Shown: positions 48,861 to 56,053 of the stretch, in pieces | Position numbering within the stretch: position 1 is the stretch's first letter | Layout: every line of letters begins with the position of its first letter | Source: an uncultured Eubacterium sp. | GTDB taxonomy: Bacteria; Bacillota; Clostridia; Oscillospirales; Acutalibacteraceae | Direction of reading: 5' to 3' | Assembly (NCBI RefSeq): GCF_945980375.1 | Contig: NZ_CAMFQO010000005.1 | Span: 1 to 64,000, forward strand | Length of the DNA: 64,000 nucleotides | Translations under genes and position numbers: made by a program | The notes under the pieces: model-generated | Told to the model about the DNA's origin: nothing | Database searches by the model: none | What the model saw: the letters and a program-made list of their open reading frames with translations, nothing else

Positions 48861-49889
48861 TGATTTTTCGGTTGTGGTTGGGGTTGTGTAAATTTCGAGT
48901 ATTGTTTGCTCAAGTGCTGTCAGTATTGTTATTGGATTAAACAGAGGTATGCTGTCGTCTACCGTTACAATTCCGTCTGTTATTCCAAGCTCCTGTGCCG
49001 TATTTTTTGTTGTGTATATGATAGTGCTTGGGCACTGCTCTCTTATACTGTTTAGGTAGTATGCAGATATTTTTGTTGATGCGTTACTGCTTATTATGGG
49101 AACAATAAGTGCTCCGTCTAAATCGGTGCAGGATGTCGGCACATCGTATATCGGTACTGCAAATGCGGGCACTCCGGTCATTATCCTGAATTCCTGTGCA
49201 ACTGCTTTTGCAACGGCGTTATCCGTTGAGTATCCGCAAAAAATAACCGTGGAGAATTTTGAAATATATTCGCCCACACCCTGAAGCTCCTTTTGGCTGT
49301 TCGAGGTAAAGGATTGCTTGCCCGGCAGCATTTGAGCGAGCTTTAATGCCACACTCATATTTATTTTTGACATTCTGCCAAGGATGTTGCCGATGTGTAT
49401 TCCAAGCATTGCGATGGCAAGATATTCTGATTGAAAGGTGCATATTCCGTCACAGCACTCTGCGGGTATAACCTTGGATTTGCACATTTTTCCAAGCGGT
49501 GAGTCGGGCCTTGTGACAGCTATTATTCTTGCTGAGTTTGCGTTAGCTCTTTTAACTGCACAAATTGTATCGTTATCATCGCCGTCAAGTGATACGGCTA
49601 TTACAAGAACATCACGGTACAGAACACCGCGAGTGCCCATTAGCAGCGGAGCAGGGATGGCCTGCGTGGGTAAATCCGTTAACAGCTCCATATTGTGTGC
49701 CATAGCCTGTGCAGAAAAGTAGGATTGCCCTGTGCCTGTAAGTATTATTTGAGCAATGCCCTTTAGAGTGTGCCTGCTTGTTTTTATGTTAGGCAGGTAC
49801 AGCTTGTCGTTTTGTATTACTCTGTCTAAAAAATGCTTTATTGAGTCGGGTATATCCTTTAACTCGGTTTCGTAAATGCTGTCGGTCAT
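48855..49889 (-). CDS. SIS-domain protein, GlmS-isomerase-like
   Basis: 344 residues with two sugar-isomerase (SIS) lobes: QIILTGTGQSYFSAQAMAHNMELLTDLPTQA, VSLDGDDNDTICAVKRAN, then TVIFCGYSTDNAVAKAVAQEFRIMTGVPAFAVP. The GTGQS and SxDG...D patterns are looser than in GlmS. The amidotransferase half is absent. It probably binds a phosphosugar as an isomerase/deaminase or sensor. Its start overlaps the stop of spoIIE by 4 bp, so it is translated with the sporulation phosphatase. Confidence 0.75.
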   Translation of the reverse strand: MTDSIYETELKDIPDSIKHFLDRVIQNDKLYLPNIKTSRHTLKGIAQIILTGTGQSYFSAQAMAHNMELLTDLPTQAIPAPLLMGTRGVLYRDVLVIAVSLDGDDNDTICAVKRANANSARIIAVTRPDSPLGKMCKSKVIPAECCDGICTFQSEYLAIAMLGIHIGNILGRMSKINMSVALKLAQMLPGKQSFTSNSQKELQGVGEYISKFSTVIFCGYSTDNAVAKAVAQEFRIMTGVPAFAVPIYDVPTSCTDLDGALIVPIISSNASTKISAYYLNSIREQCPSTIIYTTKNTAQELGITDGIVTVDDSIPLFNPITILTALEQTILEIYTTPTTTEKSA

Positions 49890-52000
49890 TTGTTTCGCTC
49901 CAATCTTGCAATAATTATGCTCATATCGTCAATCTTTTTGTCTTTCATTTTTTCCAACGCCTTTTCCAAAATGTAGTCGGCACTTTCCTGTGCACCGTTT
50001 GGCATATTATTAAGCTCGCCTTTGAGCCAATCGTCGCCAAGGTCTGTTATGCCGTCGCTCATAAGTAAAATGCTGTCGTCAACTCCAAGCACGGCAGTAC
50101 GCTTTGCAAATTCTATTCCTCGTAAAATTCCTGCGGGCATGGATGTCAGCTCGCATTTTGTCAGCCTGTTGTTTTTGATGATGTAGCTTGCGGGAGCACC
50201 TGCCTTGAACAGCTCGCACTTGCCTGTAAAAAGGTCAATGTTGGCAATGTCAAGGGTTGCAAGGCTTTCATCGTTGGATTTTACAAGCAGGGCAGAGTTG
50301 ACTATTTTTAATGCGGAATCAAATCCAAAGCCTGCGTTGATAAGCTTTGACAGTAATCCGGCACCCATAGCGCCGTCAAGAGCGGCACGACTGCCCTTGC
50401 CCATTCCGTCACTTATTATCAAAATGGAATGTCCCTTGCTGTCGTTAATAACCTTGATTGTGTCACCGCAAAGCTCGCCCTCGGCGCTGTGCTGTGCAAA
50501 GCCCACCTCGAGCGAGTAGCTCGGCTTTTCAAAAAACGACAGCATGGTGTCGTCCTTAAAGCTTGTAATTCTGCCGTTGTCAAAATATCTGTTGCAAATT
50601 TTTCCTATTTCTTCCTTAAGGTGTGGATTACTCAAATCCTTGCTGTTTGAATTAGTTAAAATCTCAACTCTCATTCTGCCGTATTTGTCAAGTATTGCAG
50701 AAATATTTGACGGGTATATATCATATTCTCCAAGCAATCTGCGTATTTTGTTGCTTGCTGTGGAATCAAAAATTTCTGCCTCGCTGAATTCGTGGGCAAG
50801 GTCGTTTAACATGCCCGATATGGAAATAAACTGGTCGGAGGCAACCATTCGTATTTGATTTGTTTTTTCAAGAATAACCTCCTTGGTAACGTATTCCTCG
50901 GGGGTCATATACTCCTTTTCTTCCTCGTTTTTCCTGCGGGTGACATCATTTATTCTCTCGCGCACCTGGTCAACGCTGTCGGATATTGCCGCCATGGCAT
51001 TTGATGCAAAACGAAGCTTCAAAACAAGATTTTGCCTCAATGTTCCGTCGGGAGGCAGGTCTGCTCCCGATTCAAAGAAGGACTCGATTTTATCGGTTAA
51101 GCCTGTCGGTAAAAGCACAAACGCAAGTGTGCCTATTAGTACGTCAAGGAATATAGATATTCCCATATCTCCACCCGATGCAATAGCAAAAAATGTTAAA
51201 GAGCATAGATATGCACCTGCGCCTGCAAAAACGGATTGCGCAGTAAACAGACCTGCTATAAGTGCCGAAAAGCCATATGCCCCGCATAATATTGAGGTGT
51301 CTTTGCTCCTTATCCCCAGGGCAAAGCCGAGTGTCAGCGAAAGCAAAATACCGAGCCTTTCGCCTCCATAGTGCAGAGCGATTAATATTATCCCTGTTGC
51401 GATTATTCTTATAGGATGTATTCGCCAAATTGCGAGGCCGTCAAGGCTTAAAAGCAGGGTTGCACCGGAAATAATTATGCACACAAGGTCATTTATGGGC
51501 AGAGCCTTAAAGCGTATTTGCCTGTAATTTGCGTTTATGGCCCTGTAATAAAAATAGGATATGCCTGCCGTAAGCAACGCCTCTGCTATCAGTAATATGT
51601 ATTCGCCTGCTTCGGCAGAGGTTCTTATTTTTACAAATGCACCTGTTACAAGATTGGCAAAAACCGCAACCGCCACACAGTAGGGCGGTATATGGTAAAG
51701 GTCAAGCAGCTCTATTAAAAATGCGCCGAGCCCTGCAATCAAAGCTGCACAAAGGTACCTTATGCTGTTTACCGAAAATCCAAAGGCAAGATGGCCAAGT
51801 ATTGCACCCATTGCAGAAAATATGTAGCCCTTCTTTTTTGATACGGCAACCAATGCTATCCCAAACGGCTTTATATCATATATTGCTCCACCGAGTGCCG
51901 ATATTAATCCGGCAAAAAAATATCCGCAGTATATCCCTATCTGCTTTAATCCTTCCTTGCTGATGCTGTCTTTAATTTTACTTTTGACTTTAATTTCCAT
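49886..52000 (-). CDS. spoIIE: stage II sporulation protein E
   Basis: 704 residues. About ten hydrophobic N-terminal segments (residues ~20-310), a middle oligomerisation region, and a C-terminal PP2C phosphatase with ILIISDGMGKGSRAALDGAMGAGLL and DDSILLMSDGITDLGDDWL supplying the metal-binding aspartates. It dephosphorylates SpoIIAA to activate sigma-F in the forespore. Somewhat shorter than the Bacillus protein. Its presence is the best sign in the window of a spore former. Confidence 0.94.
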   Translation of the reverse strand: MEIKVKSKIKDSISKEGLKQIGIYCGYFFAGLISALGGAIYDIKPFGIALVAVSKKKGYIFSAMGAILGHLAFGFSVNSIRYLCAALIAGLGAFLIELLDLYHIPPYCVAVAVFANLVTGAFVKIRTSAEAGEYILLIAEALLTAGISYFYYRAINANYRQIRFKALPINDLVCIIISGATLLLSLDGLAIWRIHPIRIIATGIILIALHYGGERLGILLSLTLGFALGIRSKDTSILCGAYGFSALIAGLFTAQSVFAGAGAYLCSLTFFAIASGGDMGISIFLDVLIGTLAFVLLPTGLTDKIESFFESGADLPPDGTLRQNLVLKLRFASNAMAAISDSVDQVRERINDVTRRKNEEEKEYMTPEEYVTKEVILEKTNQIRMVASDQFISISGMLNDLAHEFSEAEIFDSTASNKIRRLLGEYDIYPSNISAILDKYGRMRVEILTNSNSKDLSNPHLKEEIGKICNRYFDNGRITSFKDDTMLSFFEKPSYSLEVGFAQHSAEGELCGDTIKVINDSKGHSILIISDGMGKGSRAALDGAMGAGLLSKLINAGFGFDSALKIVNSALLVKSNDESLATLDIANIDLFTGKCELFKAGAPASYIIKNNRLTKCELTSMPAGILRGIEFAKRTAVLGVDDSILLMSDGITDLGDDWLKGELNNMPNGAQESADYILEKALEKMKDKKIDDMSIIIARLERNK

Positions 52001-54795: not shown

Positions 54796-54824
54796 TTGTA
54801 ATAGTAGGTGCTATGTGATATAAT
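54796..54824 (+). promoter_or_regulatory. promoter of reduced P-type ATPase gene
   Basis: TTGTAA, 17-nt spacer, perfect TATAAT, 32 nt before the ATG. Confidence 0.65.
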
Positions 54825-54856: not shown

Positions 54857-56053
54857 ATGAGTGAACATAATCATAGCTCTCATCATCACAATTATCAAAA
54901 TTGTTGTGATAATCACACACCGGACAATCACGGTTGTGGCTGTTGCGGTGATGAGCATTTTAATGAGCATAAAAAAGAAAAGCTTACAAAAATCATAGTC
55001 AGCTCTGTGTTTTTTGCTGCAGGATATGTTATCAGTGAATTTACACAGCTACCTGATTTTGCATATCTTATTTGTTATATCATTGCATATCTTATGGTTG
55101 GCTTTGATGTTGTAAGAGATGCGGCAGACAGTGTAATTCACGGCAAAATCTTTGATGAAAACTTTTTGATGAGCTTTGCAAGCATAGGTGCATTTGCAAT
55201 TAAGGAGTACACCGAGGGCGTAGCGGTTATGCTGTTGTTTACCGTTGGTGAATTTGTGCAGGGGCTTGCAGTGTCAAAAAGCAGAAGGTCTATTGACAGT
55301 ATCTTTTCCCAAAAGCACGATTCGTATACCTTACCCCGACATTATGATAATAAGGAAAGCCGTACCGAAAAGATGATAACCCGATTTGCAAGGGTGTACA
55401 CACCTGCAATTTGTATTATTGCGGTGGCTATTGTTGTTGTACCTCCGCTCCTTTTTCATAAGGAGTGGCAGGAATGGCTTCACAGAGGTCTTGCCGCACT
55501 TGTTGTCGGTTGCCCATGTGCCATTGTTATTTCGGTTCCGCTTTGTTACAGTGCGGGCATCGGTGCTTGTTCAAGGAAAAACATTTTTGTTAAGAACACA
55601 TCAACCTTGGATGAAATTAATAATTGCGATACTATTATTACCTACAACGATGATAAAAGTATTGATGACATTAAGGTTTTGCAAAATAATGGAAAAAGGG
55701 TTGTGTATCTTGGCAAGGGAATAAATGATATTACAATGCTTGAGGCTGCCGATGTTGCAGTTGCAGTTGGTGAGGATTGCACAGGTGATGCCGTTAATGT
55801 TGCCGATATGGTAATGATTAATTACAGCGAGCGCGCTATTGATGACACAAAGAAAATTGCCAAAAAAATACGTACAATAGCTATGGAAAACATTTACTTT
55901 TCCATTATAGTAAAGCTGATTATTCTTGTGCTTGATGTTTTGCTTGAGAAGAGTATTCCTATGTGGTTTGCAATTTTCGGCGATATAGGAGTTTGCTTGT
56001 TAGCGGTTGCAAACTCGGCAAGGGCAATATCTATAGGTAAAAGTAATAAATAA
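54857..56053 (+). CDS. reduced P1B-type ATPase relative lacking phosphorylation and actuator domains
   Basis: 398 residues from ATG 54857 (GAGG 10 nt upstream). A His/Cys-rich metal-binding N-terminus (HNHSSHHHNYQNCC...HGCGCCGDEH) precedes hydrophobic helices matching CadA/ZntA-type pumps, including the metal-translocation motif VVGCPCAIVIS. Between SKSRRSIDSIFS and TEKMITRFARVYTP, where the actuator domain with TGE should lie, only ~20 residues remain. After CPC, the DKTGT site reads IITYNDDKSIDD and the nucleotide-binding domain is missing, but the later hinge survives as GKGINDITMLEAADVAVAVGED. The frame is intact throughout. It cannot work as a phosphorylating pump; it may be a metal sensor, channel or chaperone. 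Confidence 0.82.
   Translation: MSEHNHSSHHHNYQNCCDNHTPDNHGCGCCGDEHFNEHKKEKLTKIIVSSVFFAAGYVISEFTQLPDFAYLICYIIAYLMVGFDVVRDAADSVIHGKIFDENFLMSFASIGAFAIKEYTEGVAVMLLFTVGEFVQGLAVSKSRRSIDSIFSQKHDSYTLPRHYDNKESRTEKMITRFARVYTPAICIIAVAIVVVPPLLFHKEWQEWLHRGLAALVVGCPCAIVISVPLCYSAGIGACSRKNIFVKNTSTLDEINNCDTIITYNDDKSIDDIKVLQNNGKRVVYLGKGINDITMLEAADVAVAVGEDCTGDAVNVADMVMINYSERAIDDTKKIAKKIRTIAMENIYFSIIVKLIILVLDVLLEKSIPMWFAIFGDIGVCLLAVANSARAISIGKSNK

Follow-up and report, generated by a model that had tools for sequence, protein, structure and literature searches.

P-type ATPases are the textbook case of transporters in which the membrane path and the ATP engine are thought inseparable. In the zinc and cadmium pump ZntA, residues E202, E214, C392, P393, C394, K693 and D714 serve the inlet, binding site, exit and lock of the metal path (PMC6305203, PMC8880997). 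Here we describe a gene, found in the window (the whole 64,000-nucleotide stretch of DNA that was analysed), whose product appears to have kept this path and lost the engine.

The gene is an intact open reading frame of the forward strand, running in a single frame from the ATG at 54857 to the TAA at 56053 and encoding an ATPase-less P1B-2 derivative of 398 aa, a form that we call T398. It is preceded on the same strand by a predicted sigma70-type promoter at 54796-54824 (-35 TTGTAA, 54796-54801; 17-bp spacer; -10 TATAAT, 54819-54824). Start and promoter are kept across T398 orthologues, and the promoter is also kept in the homologous intergenic region of a full-length pump gene from a close relative, genome G041. 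The protein begins with a His/Cys-rich cytoplasmic tail (aa 1-39; 54857-54973), modelled with low pLDDT, which is present in all five T398 proteins (pN 0.05 versus pS 0.72 between the window protein and that of G001). Helices MA, MB, M1 and M2 follow (aa 32-150; 54950-55306), including the inlet and outlet residues N102, E120 and E132, which align with ZntA E184, E202 and E214 (the first of these from an ungapped alignment). A linker of about 18 residues (aa 151-168; 55307-55360) replaces the actuator domain. Helices M3 and M4 (aa 169-240; 55361-55576) hold the predicted metal site C219-P220-C221 (codons 55511-55519), equivalent to ZntA C392-P393-C394 and invariant in full-length and shortened proteins. 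A remnant of the phosphorylation domain (aa 241-326; 55577-55834) contains GKGIND (55712-55729), an altered GDGxND. Helices M5 and M6 (aa 327-394; 55835-56038), with K353 and D376 matching ZntA K693 and D714, carry N(x)7K and DxG(x)7N. Elsewhere in the window, a SpoIIE-like phosphatase with a membrane N-terminus (PF07228, PF19732) is encoded on the reverse strand at 49886-52000.

An AlphaFold2 model (pLDDT 87, pTM 0.82) has all eight helices, MA, MB and M1-M6, leaves residues 151-168 unstructured at the position of the actuator domain, and forms a small alpha/beta fold from residues 241-326 (pLDDT about 90). The initial annotation had proposed an intact frame of 398 codons with a good promoter, a CPC motif within the helices of a pump, an actuator loop of about 20 residues, a replaced DKTGT and a His/Cys-rich N-terminus, all in agreement with our results; its claim that the phosphorylation part was lost holds for the catalytic core, but about 80 residues persist as a predicted fold. 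Foldseek matched the model first to ZntA 4umw and then to 4umv, and the top match in a sequence search of the PDB was likewise ZntA (4umv), in three pieces separated by gaps that correspond to the missing domains. In Pfam, PF00122 was matched in its C-terminal half only (profile positions 105-181), and no match to PF00702 was found. The NCBIfam models TIGR01512 (167.7 versus a cut-off of 313.5 bits) and TIGR01525 (154.7 versus 346.25 bits) matched in pieces and below cut-off. With 66.0 bits against a cut-off of 62.3, the general model TIGR01494 narrowly passed, and automatic annotation may therefore misname the protein a P-type ATPase. Judged by its sequence, the protein is a relative of the P1B-2 Zn/Cd ATPases of the ZntA/CadA type. 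We do not assign it to the P-type ATPase family, despite its P1B-2 descent and retained membrane machinery, because three defining features are missing: the Asp of DKTGT, the actuator TGE, and the nucleotide domain with GDGxND. As the initial annotation had supposed, we found no named family of this architecture in Pfam, NCBIfam, the PDB or the open-access papers searched.

Within the genus, five of the 80 species genomes have the T398 form: the window genome, G001 (84% identity), and G059, G060 and G061 (73-74% identity to the window protein). Fourteen further species genomes among the 80 carry a shorter form of 315-357 aa, T322, from which the phosphorylation remnant is also gone. The 18 other shortened proteins are 41-84% identical to the window protein, and all 19 reading frames are open and keep GCPCAIVIS or ACPCAIVIS. 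None of the 19 shortened proteins has DKTGT, the actuator TGE or GDGxND, all of which the full-length relatives checked do have; a TGE triplet in four T322 proteins lies solely within the short linker. At the DKTGT strand T398 reads TIITYNDDKS, and the corresponding region is missing from T322. At position 287 all five T398 proteins have Lys instead of the Asp of GDGxND (D287), giving GKGIND, and the nucleotide domain is deleted. A family-level search covered 398 genomes from 135 genera, two shortened-form genomes of the home genus falling in the sample, and recovered no shortened form from the 391 sampled genomes of the 134 other genera. Shortened and full-length forms of this pump, which we call A, never occur in one genome. 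An assembly artefact was ruled out because independent assemblies share the identical structure.

The metal path is conserved throughout the shortened proteins. The CPC motif (CPCx4SxP: C219-P220-C221, S226, P228) is invariant; N345 and K353 (N(x)7K, in M5) and D376, G378 and N386 (DxG(x)7N, in M6) are kept in 19/19, as are identical equivalents of ZntA E202, E214, C392, P393, C394, K693 and D714. T322 has in addition gained a Cys at the position of ZntA E184 (14/14) and a His at that of E217 (13/14), both in the cytoplasmic inlet. Where at least 90% of full-length pumps agree, T398 retains 100% of positions in MB, M1, M2 and M5 and 91% in M6, versus 47% in the phosphorylation remnant, which argues that the membrane part was selected and the catalytic part released. 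NG86 dN/dS is 0.03-0.10 for T398 pairs, has a median of 0.11 for T322 pairs and is 0.09 for full-length relatives, values that are rough as most pairs lie near synonymous saturation; close pairs of shortened genes give 0.03-0.14. By these estimates, purifying selection acts on the shortened genes no less strongly than on full-length pumps.

The full-length A pumps of the genus are 656-697 aa long with TGE, DKTGT and GDGxND intact, and the window protein is 49-51% identical to those of G041 (L125), G062 (L126) and G077 (L124). T398 and the G041 pump gene occupy the same genomic site, beside a divergent gene for a CHAP-domain protein (44% identical), and the intergenic DNA is homologous between them (73% over 173 bp, E = 8e-24). 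Since a close relative thus has a full-length pump where T398 lies, T398 was shortened in place. T322 lies at the usual site of full-length A pumps in the genus, preceded by genes for a DUF421 protein and an ArsR protein. A protein tree from which linker columns were excluded groups T398 with T322 (97/92), the protein data weakly reject a grouping of T398 with G041 (AU p = 0.027), and the gene tree accordingly suggests a single shortening. An RpoB tree places T398 with G041 (82/94), apart from T322. We consider two independent shortenings the probable history, because synteny and species tree agree, and because long stem branches could pull the shortened clades together.

Species with shortened A typically have another complete Zn-type pump, B (60-74% identical to G000:C33). 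Pump B accompanies shortened A in 17 of 19 genomes and full-length A in 8 of 42, and it occurs in 16 of 19 without A, counts that are not phylogenetically independent; the two shortened-A genomes without B are incomplete assemblies (74% and 84% complete). B has no His/Cys-rich tail. Directly upstream of B at L223, L221 and L211, and behind an ArsR-like operator, lies the gene of a free-standing small HMA-like protein with a CANCA or CAACA metal-binding motif.

Regulatory context separates the two shortened forms. The T322 start is overlapped or abutted by the stop of an ArsR/SmtB gene (PF01022; ATGA overlap in several genomes) of the zinc-sensor type, with a complete alpha-5-type D..H..H..E motif, and the T322 promoter has TCATATGA repeats adjoining its -10. 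In many of these genomes the B operon is preceded, at about 265-300 bp, by TATGAA-N6-TTCATA sites; TATGAA/TTCATA-type operator half-sites are common to T322 and B promoters. No such operator was found upstream of the window gene, the T398 promoter is conserved without it, and no regulator gene adjoins T398. The T398 genomes do have a solo CadC/SmtB-like ArsR (L206:7818-8261, reverse strand; L207:7813-8187; L208:7669-8043) with an ECC...C N-terminus, CVCDL and an alpha-5 motif, which adjoins purine genes and lies away from any pump. The DUF421/YetF gene before ArsR encodes about 138-187 aa at most T322 loci versus 223-233 aa at most full-length-pump loci (L117:6836-7369 versus L127:4838-5509), its N-terminal membrane part being reduced at the loci of the engine-less pump. 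Divergent to the DUF421-ArsR-pump operon is a gene for a short Cation_efflux protein (PF01545, about 200 aa; L117:6198-6806, reverse strand, and equivalents), found at both T322 and full-length loci.

From the missing domains and the established P-type mechanism we infer that ATP-driven pumping by the shortened proteins is excluded. The best reading is a membrane protein that binds or conducts metal independently of ATP: a former P1B-2 Zn/Cd pump whose ATP engine was deleted in place, within the genus, in species with another complete Zn pump. Selection would then act on the metal path itself, from the cytoplasmic inlet through the intramembrane CPC/Asp site to the exit Glu and lock Lys, and metal would bind and cross without ATP, driven by its gradient and the membrane potential. 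The His/Cys tail could serve as a local metal trap or gate. We infer Zn or Cd as the metal, conduction independent of ATP, and the direction of passage, which in T398, not being under the ArsR operator, is probably inward. Of the roles that the initial annotation had offered, we prefer passive conduction to that of a sensor or of a pump partner, because inlet, binding and exit-side residues are all conserved, which favours transmembrane passage over cytoplasmic binding alone. Gradient-driven conduction by T398 is nonetheless a tentative choice, to which we give slightly less than even weight. P-type pumps are built so as not to leak; without the actuator and phosphorylation domains the path might be locked closed, and K693 and D714 are possibly structural. 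For T322, control by an ArsR repressor, with the induction by excess zinc that this leads one to expect, is ill-suited to passive import.

Two further readings were rejected. A decaying pump fragment, open by chance, would fit the redundancy with pump B, which would permit loss of A (wholly lost in 16 genomes with B), and the long stem branches of the shortened clades. Against this stand 19 intact reading frames in 19 genomes, which are under selection (close pairs give dN/dS 0.03-0.14), have promoters and starts that are conserved, and keep invariant metal-path residues; decay is very improbable. The initial annotation, which had judged the gene maintained, is borne out by low dN/dS and by 18 further species genomes whose homologues lack the same parts. 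It had also set a test for a split pump, in which another gene supplies the missing domains, namely a second reading frame encoding them. Nothing but the absence of the domains speaks for this. A search with a full-length relative in seven genomes (96-99% complete) found no stand-alone gene for an actuator, phosphorylation or nucleotide domain; the matches were the intact second Zn pump, CopA, the shortened gene and, in some, a P-type ATPase of about 900 aa. We regard a split pump as scarcely credible.

Two other functions are serious alternatives to conduction. The shortened protein might be a partner or metal-feeding subunit of B that binds zinc through its tail and membrane site and either hands it over or regulates B. 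The presence of B in 17 of 19 shortened-A genomes, versus 8 of 42 with full-length A, would fit such a role, as would the half-sites shared by T322 and B promoters, which make co-regulation plausible, and the want of a His/Cys-rich tail on B itself. We nevertheless think it unlikely: B occurs without any A in 16 genomes, and so does not need it, and alongside full-length A in eight; a cytoplasmic donor would have no need of exit-side residues; and P1B-2 pumps are described as single-subunit. Still less likely is a membrane metal sensor, buffer or transceptor, in which zinc at the CPC/Asp site or the tail would be signalled or stored with no net transport. The overlap of T322 with an ArsR/SmtB gene, the Cys and His gained at its inlet, and the T398 remnant, folded in the model and a potential signalling surface, are consistent with such a role, but we saw neither an output domain nor a conserved signalling partner, T398 has no neighbouring regulator, and exit-path residues are retained. 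Both alternatives are relatively stronger for T322, given its ArsR context.

We suggest that in some gut bacteria an active pump, kept under strong natural selection with its full metal path but none of the parts that use ATP, has seemingly turned into a different, ATP-free metal protein. The fuller account is possible, though we lean towards doubting it: that in each of two sister lineages within a single gut genus a primary Zn pump cleanly shed its actuator, nucleotide and phosphorylation domains and so became an ATP-free Zn channel or transceptor, with another Zn pump present each time. A natural, maintained, membrane-only P1B protein would allow a direct test of whether metal is bound, gated or conducted by the path on its own, a question hard to answer with engineered deletions, and would reveal how an active pump can turn into a sensor or a passive transporter. 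One genus preserves the full-length form, the half-stripped T398 and the fully stripped T322.

The window protein resembles the P1B-2 ATPases ZntA and CadA, including Shigella sonnei ZntA (4umv/4umw), in its eight-helix membrane domain, its CPC, N(x)7K and DxG(x)7N motifs, its equivalents of E202 and E214, and its metal-rich N-terminus. Unlike them, it is without actuator and nucleotide domains and a phosphorylatable DKTGT, and its GDGxND is altered, making an ATP cycle impossible. Its direct relatives are the full-length His-rich A pumps of the genus, that of G041 sharing its site and a homologous promoter region, but these retain 656-697 aa and all three catalytic motifs. Chan and colleagues reportedly described, in 2010, the fusion ATPases of FUPA family 24, in which the type I P-type ATPase part is without function; there, an active ATPase is fused to the inactive half, whereas the window protein stands alone and keeps its metal path. 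This is also reminiscent of KdpFABC, in which the ion path (KdpA) is distinct from, yet works with, a P-type ATPase engine (KdpB); KdpA, however, is a relative of potassium channels, unlike the window protein, which is a stripped P-type pump.
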